Source: an uncultured Clostridia bacterium
GTDB lineage: Bacteria > Bacillota > Clostridia > Oscillospirales > Acutalibacteraceae
Direction of reading: 5' to 3'
Length of the DNA: 39,957 bases
Assembly: GCA_944384825.1 (NCBI GenBank)
Contig: CALWUT010000009.1
Span: 1-39,957 of the forward strand
Shown: positions 16,280 to 39,957 of the stretch, piece after piece
Layout: each line of letters opens with the position of its first letter
How positions within the stretch are numbered: position 1 is the stretch's first letter
Position numbers and translations under genes: made by a program
The notes under the pieces: generated by a model
What the model saw: only the letters and a program-made list of their open reading frames with translations
Database searches by the model: none
What the model was told of the DNA's origin: nothing

Positions 16280-18667
16280 TTGGTCGATAAAATTTCTCAG
16301 GAATTTAAACAACTCAGAATGAAGTTGCTTGAACGAGCTTTTTATGCTCTTAATAGTACCCAGCGTGAAGCGGTTTTTCAAATAAATGGCCCTGTTATAG
16401 TTTTAGCAGGTGCAGGTAGTGGAAAAACGACGGCGATTGTAAGTAGAATAGTTAATATGATAAGTTATGGAAATGCATATATGAGTAGTCAGGTTCCTGA
16501 TAATGTTAATGAAGAAATGGTAGGAGAGCTTAAAGATGCATATGAAAAAGGACTTGATGCTCGAAGTGTACGTGATATTATAAAAGTCGATGCGGTAAAT
16601 CCTTCAAGCATACTTGCTATTACTTTTACAAATAAAGCAGCCAATGAACTTAAAAGCCGTATCTGTACTGCTTTAGGAGATTCTGGAAAAGAGGTCTGTG
16701 CTTCTACTTTTCACTCATTTTGCGTTAGAGTGCTAAGAAATTATGCAGAAAAGTTAGGTTATTCTAATCATTTTGTAGTTTATGATGAAGAAGATTCTTT
16801 AAAAGTAGTTAAAGAATGCCAAAAATATTTGAAAATAGATGAAAAAGAGTGGAGCATTCGTAAGCTAAAGAATTTAATTTCTAGGCGCAAAGATAATTTA
16901 GTAGGTTATAAATCTTATAGTTTAGAATCGAATGATATTTTAGGAAGACTATATGAAGAATATCAAAAGAAGTTGATAGATTCTGATGCAATGGATTTTG
17001 ACGATCTTATATTTAACACTAATAAATTATTCAGAAATTTTCCGGATGTATTAAAACAATATCAAGAAAATTTCAAATATATACTTGTAGATGAATATCA
17101 AGATACGAATTATTCTCAGTATGTTTTGGTTAGCAGTCTTGCAAAGAAAAGTAATAATTTATGCGTAGTAGGAGATGATGACCAAAGCATATATAAGTTT
17201 AGAGGAGCTACGATAGAAAATATAATTAATTTTGAAAATAAATTTCCGGGTACTAAAGTCATAAGATTCGAGCAAAATTACAGATCTACTAAAAACATTC
17301 TTCAAGCTGCTAATGCGGTAATAGAAAATAATTTTCGAAGAAAAGGAAAAACTTTATGGACTCAAAATGAAGATGGTGGATGTATAAAAGTTCATACGGC
17401 TTACAATGAACACGACGAAGCTCATTATATTGCTGAAGTTATTCAAGATGGTGTGGCAAAAGGTAAAAGATATTCTGATTTTGCTATACTTTATCGAAGA
17501 AATTCTCAGTCTAACGTAATAGAAAAAGTACTTGTGAGAAGAGGGATAATGTATAAAGTATATGGCGGGGTAAGATTTTACGATCGAAAAGAGATTCGCG
17601 ATATGATTTCATACTTAAGCGTAATTAATAATCCTAAAGATGAGATCAGATTAAAAAGAATAATAAATCAGCCTCGACGTTCAATAGGTGAGAGAACGAT
17701 TTCTCAAGCAATGGAAATTGCTAACGAGAATGGTAAAGATTTACTGAGCATTATGAGAAATTCTGAAAGTTATGAAGGACTTAAACGAGTATCTGTAAAA
17801 CTTAAAGCTTTTTCTGACTTAATAGATAGTTTAATATTTAGTTATACTTCAAAAAATTTAAGTATTAGTGAACTATATAAGCTTGTATTAGAAAAAACGG
17901 GATATATAGATTACCTTAAACTTGAAAGAGATACAGCTGAGACAAAAATAGAAAATGTTAATGAGCTTTTAAATAATATTGTAAAATACGAAGAGGATAA
18001 AGGAGAAGAAGCATCCCTTTCGGGATTTTTGGAAGAAGTATCTTTATTTACTGATATTGATAATTACGAAGATACTTCTGATACTGTGTCTCTTATGACG
18101 CTGCATGCTTCTAAAGGTTTGGAATTCCCGGTGGTATTTTTACCGGGTCTTGAAGAAGGTATATTCCCGGGAATTAAGGATTCAGATAATGAAGAAGAAA
18201 TTGAAGAAGAGCGTAGACTTGCATATGTAGGAATAACAAGATGCATGAAAAAATTATACATCTTAAATTCTGACAGTCGTATGACAGCAGGCGTTACTAC
18301 TAGCAATAAAATATCTAGATTTGTATCTGAGATCCCAGAAAATCTTATTGAGAAAACTAAATCTCGTGCTTGGAAAGAATTAAAGCATGGGGAGCGCATT
18401 CCTAAGTCGGCGCAGGAATTGAGAGCTCAGTCCGTAATTGCTGCTCATCATTTCGGAGGAATTATAGGCCGATATAATCTTGAAAGAAATTCTTCTAAGT
18501 CTTCTATACTTAAAATAGGAGATCGTGTGTATCACAAAGCTTTTGGTGAAGGAAAAATAAAATCTGTAGTTAAAATCTGTAACGATTCCATGCTTGAGAT
18601 AGAATTTGGTGGGGCAGTAGGATCTAAAAGGATAATGGCAAATTACGCTAAACTTGAGAAAATATAA
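16280..18667 (+). CDS. pcrA: UvrD/PcrA-type ATP-dependent DNA helicase
   Basis: A superfamily 1A 3'-5' helicase involved in DNA repair, plasmid replication and removal of RecA or stalled polymerase. Motif Q FYALNSTQREAV, Walker A GAGSGKT (44-50), motif Ia ITFTNKAANELK, Walker B DEYQDTN (271-277), motif III GDDDQSIYKFRGA, motif IV FEQNYRST, then VSLMTLHASKGLEFPVV and EERRLAYVGITR. About 40 residues (near 63-106) lie between Walker A and motif Ia, longer than in PcrA of Bacillus. A C-terminal Tudor-like domain (GDRVYHKAFGEGKI) matches the RNA polymerase-binding tail. The start may be TTG 16280 (weak SD) or ATG 16319; I keep the former with low certainty. Confidence 0.92.
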   Translation: MVDKISQEFKQLRMKLLERAFYALNSTQREAVFQINGPVIVLAGAGSGKTTAIVSRIVNMISYGNAYMSSQVPDNVNEEMVGELKDAYEKGLDARSVRDIIKVDAVNPSSILAITFTNKAANELKSRICTALGDSGKEVCASTFHSFCVRVLRNYAEKLGYSNHFVVYDEEDSLKVVKECQKYLKIDEKEWSIRKLKNLISRRKDNLVGYKSYSLESNDILGRLYEEYQKKLIDSDAMDFDDLIFNTNKLFRNFPDVLKQYQENFKYILVDEYQDTNYSQYVLVSSLAKKSNNLCVVGDDDQSIYKFRGATIENIINFENKFPGTKVIRFEQNYRSTKNILQAANAVIENNFRRKGKTLWTQNEDGGCIKVHTAYNEHDEAHYIAEVIQDGVAKGKRYSDFAILYRRNSQSNVIEKVLVRRGIMYKVYGGVRFYDRKEIRDMISYLSVINNPKDEIRLKRIINQPRRSIGERTISQAMEIANENGKDLLSIMRNSESYEGLKRVSVKLKAFSDLIDSLIFSYTSKNLSISELYKLVLEKTGYIDYLKLERDTAETKIENVNELLNNIVKYEEDKGEEASLSGFLEEVSLFTDIDNYEDTSDTVSLMTLHASKGLEFPVVFLPGLEEGIFPGIKDSDNEEEIEEERRLAYVGITRCMKKLYILNSDSRMTAGVTTSNKISRFVSEIPENLIEKTKSRAWKELKHGERIPKSAQELRAQSVIAAHHFGGIIGRYNLERNSSKSSILKIGDRVYHKAFGEGKIKSVVKICNDSMLEIEFGGAVGSKRIMANYAKLEKI

Positions 18668-30702: not shown

Positions 30703-30997
30703 ACTTAATTGAGTACAGTAATTTTCAGTACTCTTAAAGCTTCACATATAAGTTTATGATTGTTTTATAAGATTTATTCTATTACAAGTTTTCTAATTAA
30801 AGTGTAGTGATGAATAGTCTATGGAATGTTCGTTGCGCTTATTTTGGTTAATTAATAAGAAAACATATTATTTATTAGTATATTTTAGGTTTTAATTTAA
30901 TTTCTTAATAAAAGATTGAGTTTTTTTGATTGAGAGTTTAATGATTTTTTATTAAAATAAGATAAGTAAAACCTGTTGTTTAATTATGGAGGTAACA

Positions 30998-31276
30998 ATG
31001 ATAAAAAATATTTATATGCTGAATCAAAAAAATTCATTAGGTAGAGTTATTGAATATAATTTATATGAGAGTGGTGACATAAGTGAAAAATATTATGGAA
31101 TTCAAGTAAAATTGATTTCTGATAAAGTAAAAGAAGAGATAAAAATTGAAAATATTTCATGCGATATAAATTTTGTAATGAATATAATAGATTATTTATA
31201 TGAAAATGCAGTAGACACAGTACATTGTAAAGATATAATTGAAGACTATATACTTTTATTAGAAAACAAGGAATAA
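30998..31276 (+). CDS. DUF6514-like hypothetical protein, 92 aa
   Basis: ATG 30998 follows a TGGAGG SD (an earlier ATG at 30986 contains the SD itself). The pattern YYGIQVKLIS...KEEIKIENISCDINFVMNIIDYLYENAV...CKDIIEDYI resembles short Clostridia proteins annotated as DUF6514, beta strands then helices. Function unknown. Monocistronic, flanked by spoIIP (divergent) and the tRNA gene. The 295-base gap 30703-30997 holds a small dyad GAGTAC/GTACTC (30711-30733) near the spoIIP SD and nothing else clear. Confidence 0.6.
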   Translation: MIKNIYMLNQKNSLGRVIEYNLYESGDISEKYYGIQVKLISDKVKEEIKIENISCDINFVMNIIDYLYENAVDTVHCKDIIEDYILLLENKE

Positions 31277-31369: not shown

Positions 31370-31455
31370 GCCGATGTGGCGGAATGGCAGACGCGACGGA
31401 CTCAAAATCCGTTGTTCGCAAGAGCATGTGGGTTCAAGTCCCACCATCGGTACCA
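31370..31455 (+). tRNA. tRNA-Leu (CAA anticodon)
   Basis: An 86-base tRNA with encoded CCA. Acceptor GCCGATG (31370-31376) pairs with CATCGGT, the anticodon stem ACGGA/TCCGT closes the loop CTCAAAA with anticodon CAA, a long variable arm follows (TTGTTCGCAAGAGCATG), and the T arm is GTGGG-TTCAAGT-CCCAC. A73 then CCA complete it. The long variable arm is class II, as expected for Leu. Confidence 0.97.
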
Positions 31456-31470
31456 AAAAGATTGGTGGGA
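31434..31470. other. tRNA-Leu 3' end / prophage junction (candidate att site)
   Basis: The tail gene reads into the tRNA T-arm and acceptor. An 8-bp inverted repeat TCCCACCA (31439-31446) / TGGTGGGA (31463-31470) spans the junction. tRNA 3' ends are standard integrase targets, so this may be an attachment or deletion scar. Confidence 0.5.
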
Positions 31471-32939
31471 TTTGTGCTATTTACTGACATATAAATTGAG
31501 CCTACCGGGTAAATTAAATCAAAGATAGTTTTATCATTTATCGTAAGATTTCCCGTAAGTTTGGTATCCATGTTAATTTCAAAAGCATTCTGCGTTGAAA
31601 CTTTACCAATCGCCATACCTTTTCCGCTTTGATTGTAGTCTACAAGTGTATACGCAGTTGACAAGTTATGAGAATATTCCGCAGTACTAAGAAAATCAGT
31701 AGCAGAGGTTTTGAAATTGTACTCTGATTCTGTGTCTATATTCTGAATTATTTGCGCGGTGTTTAGTGTGTAATTTGTGTTATCTAAATCAAAAATATTC
31801 CATTCTGTTTCAGATATTTTTTTGTATTTAATTTGAAAAGATTTCGTGTTTTTAGAATTAACGCTTGAAATAGAGGACGAAACAACACACTTCGCACAAT
31901 TTCCTTCGTCATTCGGCGTCCCGTCTTGGTCACATCTTGAAACCGAAAAAGAGTTAATTGCCGGACTTGCATATGCTATAACGTTAAAAGTTACGCTTTG
32001 AGACTTTGTGCGACCTCTGCTGTCTTTAACGGTTACGGAGCAAGTATTGCTGCCGCTTGTTGTCAAGAAATCAGTTGTAAAACTGCTTGATGTATACGAC
32101 GCCCCATTGATACTTACAGAATATGAGCTAATTGTGCTTGAATAACTGCCGCTTGCCGAAATGCTACCTGAAATTTTAGACTTTCCCTGAACATAAGCTC
32201 CAAATTGAGCATAAATCCCTGAAACTGCTTCGGATAAATTAACCGAGTTAATTGTCGGTACAACACTTGACGGCACATTCGCAGTTAAACTTACACTATT
32301 GGCGCCGATATACGTACTTCCGTTATACGTTTCAAGCCAAAGTTTAACACTTAAACTTGTAGAATTCGGCGTGCTGTTGGCGAGGCTCATCGGAACTGTC
32401 CAGCTTTTACTCGTTCCGATACCCGTGCCAATAGTATTCCAGTCGCCCGAGCCAATTTGATAATAAAGCGAATGTGTGAAGCTGCTTGACGCTTGGTTTG
32501 TGCTTACTGTTACCGAGTTTCCCATAGTAACAGAACTTGAACTAAGTGTTGGGTTACTTGCTCGAGGGATTGTTGATAAAGTTTGCGAATATGATTGCTC
32601 GCTTGACGATAAAGGTGTGTCCATGCTTATCCAAGCAGAACAAGTAAGCGTTTTTGTTCCGTCGTTATTGTGATATATATCAAGAGTTTTGCTAAAAAGA
32701 TTTATTCCCGAATCTGTTATTTTTTGGCTCGGAGAAACTGTTGCAGAATAGGTTGTGCCGTTGATTTTACAATAGCAAGTTCCTGAGCCATAAGTTGTGT
32801 AGCCTGAGTTGTCGCGCCAAAACCTTACATAAACACTAACATTTGAGCAGTTGTTTGAAACATTTTGCGAGTTCTGATTTACTGTGATGTTATATTTAAC
32901 GTGCGTGTTACTGGTCGAAAAAGTGCTTGATGTTCCCAA
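31434..32939 (-). CDS. Phage minor structural protein, DUF859 type, C-terminally truncated
   Basis: A 501-residue Ser/Thr/Tyr-rich, beta-repeat protein of the siphovirus DUF859 family, likely a tail or fibre component. N-terminal part: Ig-like repeats (YSQTLSTIPRASNPTL, then SSVVPTINSV and YASPAINSF units). C-terminus: GKGMAIGKVSTQNAFEINMDT, then YPVGSIYMSVNSTNPTNLFG. In intact homologs the last motif continues with GGTW and a long tail domain. Here it ends after the sequence GTDGGT, which is the complement of the tRNA 3' end, and stops. Start is TTG 32939 with GAGGTG SD. So the gene is truncated by insertion or deletion at the tRNA. Confidence 0.85.
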   Translation of the reverse strand: MGTSSTFSTSNTHVKYNITVNQNSQNVSNNCSNVSVYVRFWRDNSGYTTYGSGTCYCKINGTTYSATVSPSQKITDSGINLFSKTLDIYHNNDGTKTLTCSAWISMDTPLSSSEQSYSQTLSTIPRASNPTLSSSSVTMGNSVTVSTNQASSSFTHSLYYQIGSGDWNTIGTGIGTSKSWTVPMSLANSTPNSTSLSVKLWLETYNGSTYIGANSVSLTANVPSSVVPTINSVNLSEAVSGIYAQFGAYVQGKSKISGSISASGSYSSTISSYSVSINGASYTSSSFTTDFLTTSGSNTCSVTVKDSRGRTKSQSVTFNVIAYASPAINSFSVSRCDQDGTPNDEGNCAKCVVSSSISSVNSKNTKSFQIKYKKISETEWNIFDLDNTNYTLNTAQIIQNIDTESEYNFKTSATDFLSTAEYSHNLSTAYTLVDYNQSGKGMAIGKVSTQNAFEINMDTKLTGNLTINDKTIFDLIYPVGSIYMSVNSTNPTNLFGTDGGT

Positions 32940-33067: not shown

Positions 33068-33499
33068 ATGCAAAAAATGTATATGACGCATCCCATTTTT
33101 CCTACGCCGAACATCAAACAAACCGCTGATTTTTATGTTCAAAAGTTAGGATTTAATGCAGTTGAATATCTAAATTCCAAAGAGCCTCATATATGCCTAT
33201 ATAAAGACGACATTGAAATCGTATTGACAGATTCAAAAGGTCAAAAAGTTATTCCAAATCGTGAATTATATGGCTACGGCTATGATGCTTATGTGATTGT
33301 ATATGACCCTGAGGAATTACAAAAGGAATTTGACAGTATAGGACTTAAAATTGTAAGAAGGTTTTCTATTACCGACTATAATGACAAGGAATTGGTTTTG
33401 GAAGATATAGATGGTAGATGGCTTGCGTTCGGAGTAAAACTTGACACAGGAAATTGGAAAAATTTTACTAATAAAAATAAAAACAATATTCCTAAATAA
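33068..33499 (+). CDS. VOC (glyoxalase/bleomycin-resistance) fold protein
   Basis: A 143-residue protein with the beta-alpha-beta-beta-beta VOC module pattern: PIFPTPNIKQTADFYVQKLGF, HICLYKDDIEIVLTDS, DAYVIVYDPEELQKEF, and ELVLEDIDGRWLAFGVK. The E and H positions of metal-binding members are partly retained (H in the EPHICLYKDD strand, ED near the C-terminus), so enzyme or binding protein cannot be told. It stands opposite to the tail genes, has its own promoter and terminator, and AAAGGG SD. Probably a transferred cargo gene (moron). Confidence 0.8.
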   Translation: MQKMYMTHPIFPTPNIKQTADFYVQKLGFNAVEYLNSKEPHICLYKDDIEIVLTDSKGQKVIPNRELYGYGYDAYVIVYDPEELQKEFDSIGLKIVRRFSITDYNDKELVLEDIDGRWLAFGVKLDTGNWKNFTNKNKNNIPK

Positions 33500-33510
33500 A
33501 AATTTTTAAG

Positions 33511-33540
33511 ATAGCGCCTTAGGGTGCTATTTTATTTTCT
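33511..33540 (+). terminator. Terminator of the VOC gene
   Basis: ATAGCGCC (33511-33518) and GGTGCTAT (33523-33530), one G-U pair, then TTTATTTT. Its T-tail runs into the relic repeat. Confidence 0.8.
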
Positions 33541-33626
33541 TAAAAGATAAATTTCCGCTTGTTCTTGGATAAAAAGCAAAATTACCGAGCTGGAGTGAAT
33601 TTAAAAATTCTCAGTCGGTAATTTAA
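33532..33626 (-). repeat. Relic copy of the tail gene 3' end (pair of 34582-34676)
   Basis: About 95 bases match 34582-34676 at a constant offset of 1050, with roughly ten mismatches. It encodes the same C-terminus (EFLNSLQLGNFAFYPRTSGN...), but a TGA stop sits in place of a glycine codon at the upstream side, so it is a decayed fragment. Confidence 0.85.
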
Positions 33627-33659
33627 ATTTTCTATATAAACAATGCTTATATAAGAATA

Positions 33660-34478
33660 TTACTTAAGTAAAACATCCAAAGCTATTCTTGGTATAATAT
33701 CTTTTTTGACTTTGTATCTTCTTTGTTGCTCTTCATTGGTTCTACCGCTATACAGTGACTTATTTAATACAGTATTATCGGATATATTCATAATTGCTGA
33801 TGATTTTATGTTTACGATATTTGAAGTATGAAACAATGTCGCTGTTTCCATTTCAATGGTATTACAGCCCATTTGGATAAATTCCTCTATGTGAGCATAC
33901 TGTGAAAATATAGTGTCCACACTAAAAGTATATCCGCTATGAATTTTTATATCGGTATTTTTTGATATCTTATTTGCAGACTTCCAAAGTTTATCCGAAA
34001 ATTCTTTATCAGGGTAATATTTTTTACCATAGCAATCGTTTTTATCGGCAGTTTCCGTCGTCAAATATCTATCTGCACCAACTCCGCTGACTGAATATTG
34101 GGGAATAACAAGATCTCCTATTTTCATATCCTTGTCTAAAGCTCCGACAGACCCCATAAATAATATTTTATTGCAAGGAGTGCAGCCAAGAGATAAAACC
34201 GCATCTATAAGATTACAGGCGCCTACACCTGTTATAATATATGTTATCTTGTTGTCACCAATCTTTAACTCATATATGTTGTATCCATGACCTGTCGGAC
34301 CCGAAATATGCTTTATATTATCGGCATGATTTGAAAAAATATCAACTTCCCACGTTGGAGCAATAATAACTTTTTCATTTATTTCAAAAGATTTACACTT
34401 AAAATTAGATTCGCAAATATGATCTTTATTCGAACCGTATCTTTTATTTCCATTAATTAGACTTTCATAAATATCCAT
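33660..34478 (-). CDS. Nucleoside phosphorylase family protein (PNP/UDP superfamily)
   Basis: A 272-residue enzyme of the PNP_UDP_1 superfamily (purine nucleoside / uridine phosphorylase or MTAN type). Visible blocks: IITGVGACNLIDAVLSLG and ILFMGSVGALDKDMKIGDLVIPQ (phosphate and base loops), HSGYTFSVDTIF, and NTIEMETATLFHTSN, where the E-M-E residues contact the ribose. Active residues look intact. An extra N-terminal 35 residues carry Cys-rich sequence. It has its own promoter (34527-34555) and lies inside the tail module as probable cargo. Substrate cannot be assigned. Confidence 0.85.
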   Translation of the reverse strand: MDIYESLINGNKRYGSNKDHICESNFKCKSFEINEKVIIAPTWEVDIFSNHADNIKHISGPTGHGYNIYELKIGDNKITYIITGVGACNLIDAVLSLGCTPCNKILFMGSVGALDKDMKIGDLVIPQYSVSGVGADRYLTTETADKNDCYGKKYYPDKEFSDKLWKSANKISKNTDIKIHSGYTFSVDTIFSQYAHIEEFIQMGCNTIEMETATLFHTSNIVNIKSSAIMNISDNTVLNKSLYSGRTNEEQQRRYKVKKDIIPRIALDVLLK

Positions 34479-34576: not shown

Positions 34577-35296
34577 TTACCTTATCTTCTTGAATGATAA
34601 ATTTCCGCTTGTTCTTGGGTAAAAAGCAAAATTTCCGAGCTGGAGTGAATTTAAAAATTCCCCGTCGGTAATATAAAGTTTGTTGTCTGTCATATATTCA
34701 ACTTCGATTCCGTTTTGTAAAAAAGAAATTTTATCGTTGCTTATTTTAAGCATTAAATTGTTATTGACTTCGCCCAAAATGATGTCGCCTTGGACAAACC
34801 GAATATATCTTATGATGTTATTAAATTGCTCCGCCGAATCTGCATCTAAGTTATTTATAAGCTCCGTTAAATTACTAAACTGATAAGTAAAATCTTCGTT
34901 TGTCTGTGTAAACTGAGTTGTGATGTTGCTTTTGTATGTTTCGAAGTCTGTAATTTTGGTGTACAGTTCGGAAACTTGCGACATTATTGCTTGACTGTTT
35001 TGCTCGAATGCAGAACTGTTTTCGATTGTTTCATTCGCTATATCCGTAATACTGCCGTTATTTATATATCCACGCTCAACTCTGTCAACACGGGTGATAA
35101 TGTTATCCGTGTTTTTCTTGTTTTCCAAAACTTTATCCGTAAAAGTTAAAGACGATTTATTAATTTCAATTGTGGTTCCTTGTGGATTTTTCATATCAAT
35201 AGATATTTTTTGCAAAAGATATAAATCATCAATTCCATGTGGACTACTATAACAACCGGATATATTGCCCAATTGTAAAAGCACCAATCTGTTCAT
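34577..35296 (-). pseudogene. Tail protein (Tal) C-terminal part, out of frame with 35247-36296
   Basis: The 239-residue frame has a SSPHGIDDLYLLQKISIDMKNPQGTTIEI start that normally follows the N-terminal tail endopeptidase domain in one polypeptide, then a coiled, Asn/Gln-rich linker and a tail-fibre style end (YITDGEFLNSLQLGNFAFYPRTSGN). The ATG at 35296 is inside the overlap, not a real start. Together with the upstream ORF it is one Tal-like gene broken by one extra base near 35247-35260. Its 3' end is duplicated at 33532. Confidence 0.75.
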
Positions 35297-36296
35297 TTGT
35301 AAGCTTTAAATCAATAGCTTTTATTGTAATTTCATTTTTAAATTTTACGCTGTCGGCAAGATGTGAGAGGGCTTTAGATTGCAAATTTTCTGCAACTTTA
35401 ACATCTTCCCATTTAACCACTTCATAAATAGCCCCGTAAGTTTTCGCAAGTGTAGTGTTTAAAATATGGTCTCCAGTTTTTATAATTCCTTCAGATAAAG
35501 TTCCGTCCGGCAGACTTCCGATTGTCAAATATTCATCTGTTTGGTTTCCATCAGAATCTTCAATCCTTGCTCCAAGTGGGATAATTCCCGTCTTTATATC
35601 TGCTCCGCTAATTTCTTCTGTCAAATCAAGAAGATTAGCACCAAATTCTATCTTTTGTGTGCAAACGAATTTATTTCCTGTTTTCGTGCCGTCAGATGTA
35701 AAATCTTCAAGATAATCAAGATAGTTAATGCCATTTTCATCACGGATAATTAAATATCCTCCATAATTTTTAAGAAGCCTTGAGTTTATAACTTCCCAAG
35801 AACTTAAATATTCAATGCTTGAACGTGCAAGGTAATTATTCGGGTCGGTAACAGTTATATTCCCAAGCTGTATTTTTTGAAAATCTTTAACCTGCGAGTT
35901 ATGGCAAGTCAAAATCCAATTTAAAAAGTATTCTATGACATTGTCATGTTCATAATCTAAACTTGAAAATTGGTCATCATTTGGAAAATCAAATGGTCTA
36001 ATAACGGAATCCAGTAAAAAAGCGAGAACCCCCTCGCAAGTTATCTTTTTTTCATTATGGAATCCCAGCTCCGAATTAATGACCCGCCCTTTGAAAATTA
36101 AATTATTATCTCGATAAACTTTAATTAATGAACTCAATTTTGATATGTTATTAAAATATGGGTGGTTTTGATAAATAGTAAAAGTCAGCTCATTTGCCGT
36201 GTTTAATTCTTGTTTTAAAACAGGATTTTCAAGTTGGAATTCATTTAGCTGCGAATCGTATAAAATATAGTCATCGCAAAATATTTTATACTGCAT
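35247..36296 (-). CDS. Prophage tail endopeptidase / Tal N-terminal part
   Basis: The 349 residues match the N-terminal domain of the phage tail endopeptidase/minor structural protein family (Prophage_tail): an opening YKIFCDDYILYDSQLNEFQLENPVLKQEL, then VYRDNNLIFKGRVINSE, KITCEGVLAFLLDSVIRP and the later KTGIIPLGARIEDSDGNQ. The protein ends abruptly at IGQYIRLL-stop. The next residues (SSPHG...) are in another frame, so the gene is frameshifted. It starts at ATG 36296, whose first base is the last base of the Dit stop, so it is coupled. Confidence 0.85.
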   Translation of the reverse strand: MQYKIFCDDYILYDSQLNEFQLENPVLKQELNTANELTFTIYQNHPYFNNISKLSSLIKVYRDNNLIFKGRVINSELGFHNEKKITCEGVLAFLLDSVIRPFDFPNDDQFSSLDYEHDNVIEYFLNWILTCHNSQVKDFQKIQLGNITVTDPNNYLARSSIEYLSSWEVINSRLLKNYGGYLIIRDENGINYLDYLEDFTSDGTKTGNKFVCTQKIEFGANLLDLTEEISGADIKTGIIPLGARIEDSDGNQTDEYLTIGSLPDGTLSEGIIKTGDHILNTTLAKTYGAIYEVVKWEDVKVAENLQSKALSHLADSVKFKNEITIKAIDLKLTNEQIGAFTIGQYIRLL

Positions 36297-36931
36297 TAAA
36301 TTTCGCCCTCCTGAAAATTAAGAGTAGCATTGCCGCTTGAATTTAGAGTATTTGCACCACTTGTTAGCTTTATCGCTCTTAGGTGCGTTCCTGCACTATA
36401 AACCTTTGAATTTATCGTGATTTCAGCTTCATTTATCAAATCCGCATATACCGTCATTCTTGAATTGCTTACTGTGTTTGTGCCTTCGGTTAAATTGAAA
36501 GTAGTTATGTTTTTCTTATGTTTAAAAGGCTCGCAATCGCAAGAAATAACGATTTTTCCAAGTTTACTACTTGAATTATATTCATCAATCTGACATCTAC
36601 CGACATAATAAAAATCAGGGTCAGACCATGTTTTTATTTTCATTTTATGTCCGTGCAAAAAAGAAGAAATATTTATCATTTTAGCTTGCCAATCGGTTAT
36701 TTTATCAATGCTCTCAAAAGTGAATTTTAGCGTTCTGTTTTCGTATTTTATTTCACCGAAACACTCTGATAAATCAAGACTTCCGTCCATGCCCTCAATG
36801 CTCACGCTATAAGTTTTAGGCGAGGGAATACCAATATTTTGTTCCGTCAAGATAACACCGAAATCAGTATAGCTGTGTTTTGAAATATTTGTACTCCAAG
36901 ATGTAAAAGTAACTCCGTTTAAATTGCTCAT
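36296..36931 (-). CDS. Phage distal tail protein (Dit)
   Basis: A 211-residue siphovirus distal tail protein of the Dit/SPP1 gp19.1 type, which forms the hexameric hub between tail tube and tip. Blocks: FTSWSTNISKHSYTDFGVILTEQNIGIPSPKTYSVSIEGMDGSLDLS, FGEIKYENRTLKFTFES, and FYYVGRCQIDEYNSSSKLGKIVISCDCEPF, then a galectin-like C-terminal half. ATG 36931 overlaps the tape-measure stop (ATGA), typical of tail operons. Intact. Confidence 0.85.
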   Translation of the reverse strand: MSNLNGVTFTSWSTNISKHSYTDFGVILTEQNIGIPSPKTYSVSIEGMDGSLDLSECFGEIKYENRTLKFTFESIDKITDWQAKMINISSFLHGHKMKIKTWSDPDFYYVGRCQIDEYNSSSKLGKIVISCDCEPFKHKKNITTFNLTEGTNTVSNSRMTVYADLINEAEITINSKVYSAGTHLRAIKLTSGANTLNSSGNATLNFQEGEI

Positions 36932-39276
36932 CGTCCTCGCTCCTTGCTAATTTGAATTTTTGCAAGCTCTTGGTTTATGGGTGGCGTTAATTCTCCAACC
37001 AAAACACCTGTATCAAGACAAATCTGTCTGCTTTTAAGGCCGGGGATATAATATTCGAGAAATGACAAGATTGAATCAAGTTTCCCAAGTATTCCGCTAT
37101 TGCTCACTTCCGAAGTGGTTTTAATATTACTTATGGAATTAGTCGAACTTGGCAACATATTTAAGTCAGTATAAAAATCGGGTACAATTGCTTCCTGCAT
37201 ATCTTTTTTAACACCGTTCATAGCATTTACAAAACCTTCTCCAACACCTAAAGCCATGTTTTTTCCGACCTCTTGTTCAAATACCGTTGAGGGCGAATGT
37301 ATTCCGAGTGCAGATTTCATGCCGTCCAATATGCCTCTTGCAAATTCCCTGACTTTGCTTGTTATCCATCCAATTGAGTTTGAAATACCACTCCAAATTC
37401 CCGAAACAATATTTTTGCCAATTCCCCACATCTGACCCGGAATTTTTCTTACTTTATTCACAATTGCATTAAATAAACCTGAGGCAGCCTGATAACCTTT
37501 TGAAACCATATCAGAGCCCCAAGAAACAACTTTTTGAATAGTTTGTGAAAACCAGTTTCCAATTTGACCGGGAAGATTTTTTATTACATTTATCACACTA
37601 TTTAAAAATTCACTTGCTTTGGTTTTTGCTGTATTTACTGCATTTGTGAAAAATTCGTTAATTTTGTTCATAGTATTTTGAAGCCATTCTCCAATTTTGC
37701 CCGGGAGTTCTTTCACATAATTTATAATGTTGGTTATAAATTCGGAGGTTTTCGTAACACCTAAATTTATTATATTCCCAAAAAATTCTCCGATTTTAGA
37801 GATTGTTTCCGATAGCCATTCACCGATTTTACCGGGTAATTCTGAAAAATAAGTTATAACCTGGGATATAAATTCCGGCACTGTAACTGTAGCAAAATTC
37901 CATAAATCAAGGCCAAACTTAATTATATGTCCGATAGCTTCACCTATGACAAATCCCAAATTATACGGGAGCTCTTTAAACCATTCTAATACGCTCTCAA
38001 TCCACGCCGGAATTGTTTCGGTGAAGAATGAAACAATCGAATTCCAACCATTTACAAAAAGTTCTTTTATAGAGTTCATCGCATTTCCTATAAATGAGCC
38101 GATTTCATCACCAATATTTCTAAACCAATCAAACATCGGCTGCATAGCCGACATAATATTATCCCATAAACCACTAAGCCAAGCGGAAATTTGAGGCCAA
38201 AAGTCAGACAAGGTTTTAATTAGTGCCACAGGCCAAGCAGTAATCCAAAGTAAGATGTCTTGCCAATGCTCGTCCAAAAAGTCGGTTACTTTACTCCAAA
38301 TATCACTGCACCATGAAACAATCCCGTCCCATAAATCACTAAAAAATTTTGAAATTTGTGGCCAAAAAGCAACGATAAGTCCGGCGAGTGCTATTCCTAA
38401 CGCAACAGGCCACGCAGCAATTGCACTTGAAACTACAGCCATAACCGCAGATATAGCGGCGGCAATGGGAGGGCCTAAAGCAATAATTGCACCAACAATC
38501 AGCAAACCCCAACCCACAATTTGACCCGAAAAAGGCTCTATCGCAGCCCACAAACCTTCTCCGATTGCACTAATAATCTGTCCGCCAAGCTCTAAAAATG
38601 CTGGCATTTGATTAGATATTTCTGTAATTAAAGTTTTTACAGTTTCTTTGAAATTGCTAATTTCTCCGGATAAATCATCATCGCCGGAAATAATGGATTC
38701 CACAAGTTTTCCAAATGAATCTCCGACATCATAAGCTTTGTTTCCTATTTCACTAAGCATTGGTGCAAAAGAAAGTTTTATTTCATTTGCAATTTCTCCG
38801 ATTCTTGTCTGCGTATCTTCCAAGGCCGCAGAAAGCTGTGCCATTTTTCCTGCGTCTGTTTGTCCTAAAGCCTCATTCATGCCTCCGATTGACGAAGTTA
38901 TAACTTCCGTTAAAACCGCACATCTTTCTTCTTCGGTGCCATATTTTAAGATTTTTTCTTGTGCTTCATCAAATTTATATCCATATCTTGAAAGAGCTCC
39001 TGTTTGTCCGTCCATAACTTTTCCGAGCATGGTAGCGATATTTGCAGCTGATTCTTGCGAGGCATTTATTCCGTACTGCTGAGCTATCATATTATTCATA
39101 ACGGGGATTAATTTTTCGAGAGTTTCCTTTTTCGTTAGATAAGTGGAAAGCTCCTGAGCACCGCCGAGCTGGGCTGTTTTAGACACAACTCCGAGTTTTT
39201 CTTGGCTCGAGATTAATGCTTCAATACTTTCAGCGTCTTCAAGCCTTGCGTCCATGGTGTTTTGCATAACTTGCAA
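36928..39276 (-). pseudogene. Tape measure protein, C-terminal part after a frameshift
   Basis: The tape measure protein sets tail length and guides DNA through the membrane. This part starts in helical sequence (MQNTMDARLEDAESIEALISSQEKLG), then a very hydrophobic segment at about 253-305, then Trp-rich units and repeats of roughly 44 residues around ELPGKIGEWL, NLPGQIGNWF and KIPGQMWGIG, and a C-terminal GFVNAMNGVKKDM domain. The same frame is open upstream of 39276 (ISYVNTGIELSNAETENRQKLL), so the nominal ATG is not a true start. The N-terminal part is in another frame; one A is missing near 39375-39379. Confidence 0.85.
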
Positions 39277-39326
39277 AAGTTTTTGCCTATTTTCTGTTTC
39301 TGCATTTGACAGCTCTATCCCTGTAT

Positions 39327-39957
39327 TTACATAAGAAATGACGGCTTCTTTAATTTTCTTAAAGCCGTCAATAATTTTTCTATTCCTGTTTTTATTAAGT
39401 CTGCGGATAGGTTCGCTTTTAAAACTTCGCCGAAAATATTTGTTTGTTTTTCAGTATCGTCCATTTCATTTCCGAGCTCATCGGTTGCTTTTTCGGCCTC
39501 GTTTAATTTGTCTTTGTTTTCTTTTATATCGCCGTTTAAATCTTTTATCTGCGTTGCAAGTTCTTTAGCTTCGGAGCTGTTTTTGCCTTGTTCCAAAACC
39601 ACATTTTTATATTCCGTTTGCAATGATTTTAGCTCATTTTCCTGTTCGGAAATTTTAGCCGTTAGCTTCTCAAGGGGCGACCCACATTTAGTCATTTCGG
39701 AATTCACATCACTTAAATTTTTCTCCATTTTTGTAAGTTCAGTTTCTGCTTTGTTAAGTGATGTTCTCCAATTATTTGTGCGTTTATCGTTTTCGCCGTA
39801 TTTTTCGCTTGCTTCCTCAAGCACTCCCTTTAAAGTTGCAATTTTTTCTTTTTGGTTTTTAATTTGCTCATTTAAAACTTTACTTTGCGAAGACAGAGAA
39901 GAAACAGACTTATTGTTTTTTCCAAATTCCGCTGTTACTTTTCCCATTTCCGAAGCT
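39327..39957 (-). pseudogene. Tape measure protein, N-terminal part (continues beyond the window)
   Basis: Residues are strongly coiled-coil: VLNEQIKNQKEKIATLKGVLEEASEKYGENDKRT, then LTAKISEQENELKSLQTEYKNVVLEQG and further heptads. This is the typical start of a siphovirus tape measure protein. The frame is open to the window edge (codons before the ATG at 39947 are in frame), so the true start lies outside. It runs off-frame at the A-run and ends KPSFLM-stop. Adding one A restores DGFKKIKEAVISYVN and joins it to the 36928 frame. Confidence 0.8.

Follow-up and report, generated by a model that had tools for sequence, protein, structure and literature searches.

Large serine recombinases of the DUF4368/TndX-like clade include multi-targeting members, as described in a paper whose main text does not contain the word tRNA (PMC10083194). 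The integrase of a related genome, G001, is like these enzymes in that it carries DUF4368 domains and has close relatives at several targets; it is unlike them in that the targets here are several tRNA 3' ends with a common CA core. For the LI/A118 integrase, a model has been proposed in which the sites are pseudo-palindromic about a dinucleotide and the zinc-domain motif is shifted by 5 bp between attP and attB (PMC3783163). The sites that we describe follow the same plan, except that attB would be a tRNA T-arm with its CCA end, and that the half-sites are deduced from sequence only. Helper-embedded PICIs offer a precedent for integrase action within a late gene of a prophage (PMC10111431, whose main text does not contain the word serine). 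A similar action is proposed for our locus, with the difference that no satellite is present and that the outcome would be a deletion: the body of the tail gene concerned is uninterrupted and is joined to a tRNA gene. This body is similar to the DUF859/phrog_372 siphophage tail proteins, whereas the Gp10_C-type C-terminal domain of these proteins has been lost at the junction. Among the titles and abstract openings searched, no description of a serine integrase family with a CA core in the tRNA CCA end was found, which is weak evidence of novelty.

The window analysed here is the entire contig G000:C9, with a length of 39,957 bases, from an assembly (G000) of 1.18 Mb in 23 contigs. To the left of its tRNA-Leu gene lie genes that domain matches indicate to be chromosomal, of the SpoIIP-type and DUF6514 families, the DUF6514 gene being located at 30986..31276 on the plus strand. 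To the right, siphophage tail genes (DUF859, Tal-like, Dit and tape measure) point toward the tRNA and continue up to the contig end. The window is best explained as holding one end, that on the tRNA side, of a defective siphophage prophage, probably of a Clostridia bacterium. With a probability of about 0.6, we propose that attL was recombined by an integrase with a cryptic half-site of the tail gene; the integrase, the endolysin and the tail gene's 3' end would thereby have been deleted, and the prophage would be dead.

Junction of the tail gene with tRNA-Leu(CAA)

The tRNA-Leu(CAA) gene identified by ARAGORN (31370..31455, plus strand), which serves as an integration target in relatives, is complete and ends in an encoded ACCA. 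The DUF859 tail gene on the minus strand (31434..32939; domain match and homologue alignment) is truncated at its 3' end. Its open reading frame of 501 residues terminates at 31434, inside the complement of the tRNA, as GTDGGT-stop, in agreement with the initial annotation, which had described a phage tail gene that runs into, and ends within, the 3' end of tRNA-Leu. When compared with unjoined phage copies, the closest of which are G009:C15, G009:C11 and JAUNFB010000074.1, the phage homology reaches ACCA at 31452..31455, that is, the tRNA's own 3' end. Both G009 copies are identical to window positions 31452-31480 over 29 of 29 nt. The unjoined copies read TTTTTGGT followed by GGAAC, and the window reads TTTTTGGT followed by ACCGATGG, the latter part being tRNA; at the level of sequence, these alignments establish both the position of the junction and the form of the unjoined tail site. 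A microhomology at GGTGGGACTTG, suggested earlier, has to be abandoned, as these bases are native tRNA beyond the join and the common sequence stops at ACCA 31452-31455. Among the homologues seen, GGTGGGACTTG was found in a distant tail gene, G000:C15; the closest unjoined copies read GGTGGAAC.

No stretch other than ACCA was seen to be common to the tRNA side and the tail side of the join. This speaks for an illegitimate deletion, in which slippage or end joining between the two ACCA copies would have created the junction with no integrase, and with selection for an intact tRNA only; we judge this explanation, the main alternative to the one proposed above, unlikely overall, although it retains a real chance of being correct. 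The same four nucleotides bear on a second alternative, an artefact of assembly or strain mixture that joined non-adjacent chromosomal and phage sequences. Contigs C15 and C11 of G009 share 55 nt and both end at the tail position, and JAUNFB010000074.1 ends 5 nt beyond GGT, which speaks for such an artefact; nevertheless, 4 nt in common across the join were judged too little for an assembler overlap, the join falls at a biologically meaningful position and the tRNA is complete, and we consider it very unlikely.

An 8-bp inverted repeat detected by a repeat scan occupies 31439..31470, with arms at 31439-31446 and 31463-31470. Its centre, at 31454.5, falls on the CA dinucleotide at 31454-31455, which the att sites of relatives designate as the presumed crossover dinucleotide. 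The repeat had already been noted as spanning the junction, and it is real. Taken alone it is commonplace, as the window contains 96 perfect 8-bp inverted repeats with spacers of 0-30; it is its centring on CA that is unusual, arms so placed being present at only 2 of the 4046 CA/TG dinucleotides of the window, the other one with A/T-rich arms.

The extent of the loss can be read from the protein. The DUF859 match covers residues 11-492 (5.6e-56, 190.8 bits, for a Pfam cut-off of 28.8), and Gp10_C is matched over its first 26 positions only, out of 139, leaving the C-terminal domain incomplete. In G009:C15, the C-terminal piece corresponds to a Gp10_C domain and matches its positions 17-139. 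The nearest complete homologues have 621 residues, versus 501 in the window, where the last ~125 residues have been lost. All 12 homologues aligned beside the window continue with FGGTW, which supports the earlier statement that homologues go on with GGTW; at this position FGGVW and FFGVW occur as variants in two more distant homologues. A short alternative end (506 residues, ...GTTWNSV..KWVRKK) is found in G005 and G010. The initial annotation would have withdrawn its reading had homologous genes been seen to stop naturally at this residue: none does among the homologues examined, the two 506-residue forms ending differently, and among 20 distinct tail sites the only stop at this point is the window's own (one site, L155, is uninformative, as its contig ends here). 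Ten of the 12 named loci with close tail genes belong to Clostridia MAGs, some from goat gut, and the other two are labelled Elusimicrobia (sheep rumen) and Erysipelotrichia, probably through mis-binning.

The tail genes of G009:C15 and C11, which belong to prophages at different tRNA-Pro genes, have 55 nt in common and then diverge, and the assembly breaks there. C-terminal cassette switching was considered for this branch and rejected: the two copies adjoin separate integrases at different tRNA-Pro genes, and a tail sequence common to two prophages is enough to account for it. At least two kinds of C-terminal sequence are found on similar tail bodies among phages.

Further into the prophage, a glyoxalase/VOC-type gene (33068..33499, plus strand) and a phosphorylase-superfamily gene (PNP_UDP_1; 33660..34478, minus strand), both identified by domain match, are inserted as cargo between the DUF859 and Tal-like genes, and a 104-nt duplicate of the Tal-like gene 3' end lies between the two (33528..33631, minus strand). 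The segment 33068-34478 is thus a cargo site; a similar phosphorylase-type gene, recognised by eye, adjoins DUF859 in G008:C17. The Tal-like gene itself, a label chosen in this analysis for what the PHROG annotation calls a tail protein, extends over 34577..36296 on the minus strand and is broken into two frames (34577-35296 and 35247-36296). It is followed on the same strand by the distal tail protein Dit (36296..36931, PHROG) and by the tape measure gene (36928..39956), which is in two frames and reaches the contig end. With respect to the intact relative JAFXSD010000036.1, the frame changes are located at 35247-35296 in the Tal-like gene and at about 39348-39381 in the tape measure gene, and reflect either a decayed prophage or sequence errors. 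Decay elsewhere in the prophage, with these two genes each in two frames, adds weight to an ordinary microhomology deletion at ACCA, which for this reason keeps its place among the explanations. It is joined in this by another prophage of the same genome, at G000:C21, where two truncated genes, an integrase gene (from about residue 101) and a Tal-like gene, are fused; this is a second deletion in G000. On the same contig (1-2085, L091), a phage arm, a core and a second arm are found to the left of the truncated integrase, an arrangement like that of an attP or of a tandem prophage boundary.

Integrase loci and presumed att sites in relatives

A short flank, corresponding to the phage arm, and then a large serine integrase come after the same tRNA-Leu in G001 and G007; in G007 and G002 a small resolvase-type gene is located between the tRNA and the large integrase. 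The order in G001 is tRNA-Leu, integrase, further genes, GH25 endolysin and tail gene, in the same orientation as in the window, with 13.3 kb separating the tRNA from the tail gene. In G009, tRNA-Pro and the matching tail site are 8.3 kb (C15) or 5.0 kb (C11) apart, giving a size of 5.0-13.3 kb for the corresponding segment in relatives. The G001 integrase is composed of Resolvase, Recombinase, zinc ribbon and DUF4368 domains; the window itself contains no integrase gene. Matches to this integrase at E<=0.001 are present in 10 of the 11 genus genomes, many of them being distant serine recombinases, and matches with at least 65% identity over at least 466 residues in six of the 11 (G000, G001, G002, G006, G007 and G009). 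Across the family, 161 of 398 genomes have matches at E<=1e-60.

ARAGORN detected tRNA genes at 27 of the 33 best-matching integrase loci. The tRNA CCA is followed by 12 nt and then by ATAAGGGG or a variant of it, weakest in G261, and the opposite phage arm, seen in G008, G005, G000:C21 and G000:C12, stands at equal spacing on the other side of CA. Since CA is separated by 12 nt from the phage arm on either side, these two bases, the last of the tRNA, mark the centre of the site. A zinc-domain motif was built from positions 16-24 of the phage arms. Its best score falls at position 16 in 25 of the 27 distinct phage halves, and at position 11 in 21 of the 24 distinct tRNA halves; the two consensus sequences match at 8 of 12 positions for a shift of +5, versus 5 of 12 for the next best shift. 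This geometry is seen in the aligned relatives, and we infer from it that the tRNA flanks are functional att sites.

The phage-arm score was evaluated by leave-one-out on 30 tRNA flanks, namely those of 26 of the 27 tRNA loci and of four more G000 tRNAs. Twenty-nine were positive (7.4 to 27.7) and one scored -0.5. The 17 control flanks, from tRNAs not directly followed by such an integrase, ranged from -41.7 to -7.2, none being positive. The locus left out, L125, had its CCA taken 3 nt early (score -29.8) and was not counted as a control; its flank seems to hold a phage arm if read 3 nt on.

For the prophage of the window, no integrase, phage arm or reciprocal junction was found, the contig ending inside the prophage. 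A search for its far end by means of G007 head-region DNA gave no match in G000, a result that shows little as the search had no positive control. An orphan far-end phage arm is present at G000:C12 16182-16207 (L164), adjoining a methyltransferase-like gene (named by eye); its orientation is the one expected for the far end of the window prophage, but it could belong to another tRNA. The phage-end gene at 16282-17337 of the same contig has a sub-threshold ADP-ribosyltransferase match (20.1 bits, cut-off 23.4). At G000:C17 83-517 (L092), a small resolvase-type gene lies beside a tRNA-Pro, and the contig ends just beyond. In G005:C4 and G008:C55 (L039 and L040), tRNA-Leu(CAA) is followed by a phage arm at a distance of ~0.6 and 1.15 kb, and one ORF of at least 90 residues lies between tRNA and arm in each; these arms may be remnants of further lost prophages. 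A candidate for a syntenic empty site was considered in G009, where DUF6514 is near a tRNA-Leu(CAA) followed by gdhA (named by eye). This tRNA differs, and the same gene in G000 has no upstream tRNA, so that it does not provide a clean empty site.

A pattern search of 250 family genomes, three of them from the genus, revealed no second tRNA-tail fusion. It returned the window and three other matches: no tail gene was seen among the ORFs of two of these (L166 and L167), and the tRNA finder, the only method applied for this purpose, identified no tRNA in the third (L168). An exact pattern scan of viral_contigs gave no match.

The half-site retained in the tail gene

The window junction, at ACCA/CA 31452-31455, coincides with the presumed crossover position of the 30 aligned tRNA flanks. 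Scored as a phage arm, the tail flank obtains -21.2, compared with -0.5 to 27.7 for these flanks; the junction is therefore not a normal attL. Five other tRNA-Leu and tRNA-Pro genes scored in G000 (on C3, C6, C12, C17 and C18) have kept a phage-arm-like flank, and three more tRNAs of this genome without an arm (Gln, Ala and Lys) score -22.6, -36.2 and -7.2, as expected for tRNAs not used as targets. A join placed exactly at the presumed crossover dinucleotide, from which the phage arm has wholly gone while the five others retain theirs, argues against a deletion produced by chance between two ACCA copies.

The half-site retained from the tail gene (31456..31474, plus strand) resembles the tRNA half-site. 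Of its 20 positions, 12 agree with the tRNA-Leu half, eight of them in one uninterrupted run. In 165 kb of phage DNA, which contain 867 ACCA sites, 8-nt runs were found only at the corresponding tail site in its two G009 copies, and a single other site has more total matches (13 vs 12). On both halves the zinc-domain motif is found at position 11, in the attB register, with scores of 4.8 for the tail half (register 11-19, i.e. 31465-31473) and 5.8 for tRNA-Leu. Of 865 ACCA sites, three score as high as the tail half, including the homologous tail position in G000:C3; the G009 copies were dropped from this count because their contigs end too soon. With a general tRNA profile, the tail half has a negative score (-9.1), higher than that of any of the 30 phage flanks (-44.4 to -16.1), better values being obtained at 2 of the 867 ACCA sites. 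The half that was lost, as read from the unjoined tail site in G009, resembles neither partner, scoring -25.1 as a phage arm and -18.1 as a tRNA half.

This resemblance suggests that the tail gene already possessed a tRNA-like half-site before the join. Scores above 0 in the attB register were obtained for 8 of the 20 distinct tail sites (window included), versus 49 of 847 ACCA sites of phage DNA. As the conserved NP...FGGT coding motif accounts for part of the resemblance, the half-site need not have evolved as an att site.

The position of the junction at an att-like core could also be taken to indicate ordinary integration through a true attP inside the tail gene, whose 3' part would then lie at the far end of the prophage. 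Insertion of satellites into the late genes of prophages is indeed known (PMC10111431). A true attP of this kind is very unlikely here: the arms of related phages adjoin the integrase, and as a phage arm each half of the tail site scores well outside the range of the 30 flanks (-0.5 to 27.7), with -21.2 for the retained half and -25.1 for the lost one. Moreover, no tail 3' piece starting at the join was found in G000, in which three other C-terminal tail pieces each keep their own upstream tail sequence. The initial annotation had hesitated between an attachment core within a structural gene and a deletion; a deletion is favoured here over a true phage attP in the tail gene. The remaining features, namely the half-site in attB register and the repeat centred on CA, are not explained by a random deletion. 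Taken together, the sequences fit a mixture of the two ideas, in which the deletion would run from the presumed crossover dinucleotide of the tRNA to a cryptic, att-like half-site within the tail gene.

A proposed site-specific route to a defective prophage

In the recombination that we favour, a DUF4368-type large serine integrase, cutting at the CA of the tRNA CCA, probably inserted the ancestral phage at the 3' end of tRNA-Leu(CAA). The resulting attL, composed of the tRNA half, CA and a phage arm, may then have recombined with the tail site, composed of ACCA and the tRNA-like half-site. The integrase, the endolysin and the 3' part of the tail gene would have left as a circle, and the chromosome would have kept the tRNA half, CA and the tail half. 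Retention of these three elements would leave a repeat symmetric about CA and no phage arm after the tRNA. Two routes can be envisaged: a single aberrant excision, the tail site standing in for attR, or the entry of a second phage at the tail site, followed by its departure together with the intervening segment. When a serine integrase excises a prophage, the two host halves are joined and the two phage halves are released. The weak point of the one-step route is that the lost tail half carries no phage arm, a difficulty that the two-step route avoids. That this particular integrase was the agent, as well as the order of the steps and the size of the segment lost in the window, is what we infer.

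More generally, we would tentatively suggest, while regarding it as doubtful, that this integrase clade reads generic bacterial tRNA 3' ends by means of the CA crossover and of the zinc motif in the T-arm, so that one type of enzyme could settle at many tRNAs, that the conserved NP...FGGT motif encodes a cryptic half-site on the opposite strand of the tail gene, and that prophages delete their integrase, endolysin and receptor end by mis-excision, which would leave them permanently grounded.

If the proposed recombination is correct, it would constitute a site-specific route to defective prophages, whose scar is legible in the sequence, and the tail site would be an example of a coding constraint that creates a pseudo-att half-site inside a phage. 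It would also point to large serine integrases with an attB common to tRNA 3' ends, and such integrases are of interest as integration tools for Clostridia. A resident virus would in this case have been disabled by its own machinery.
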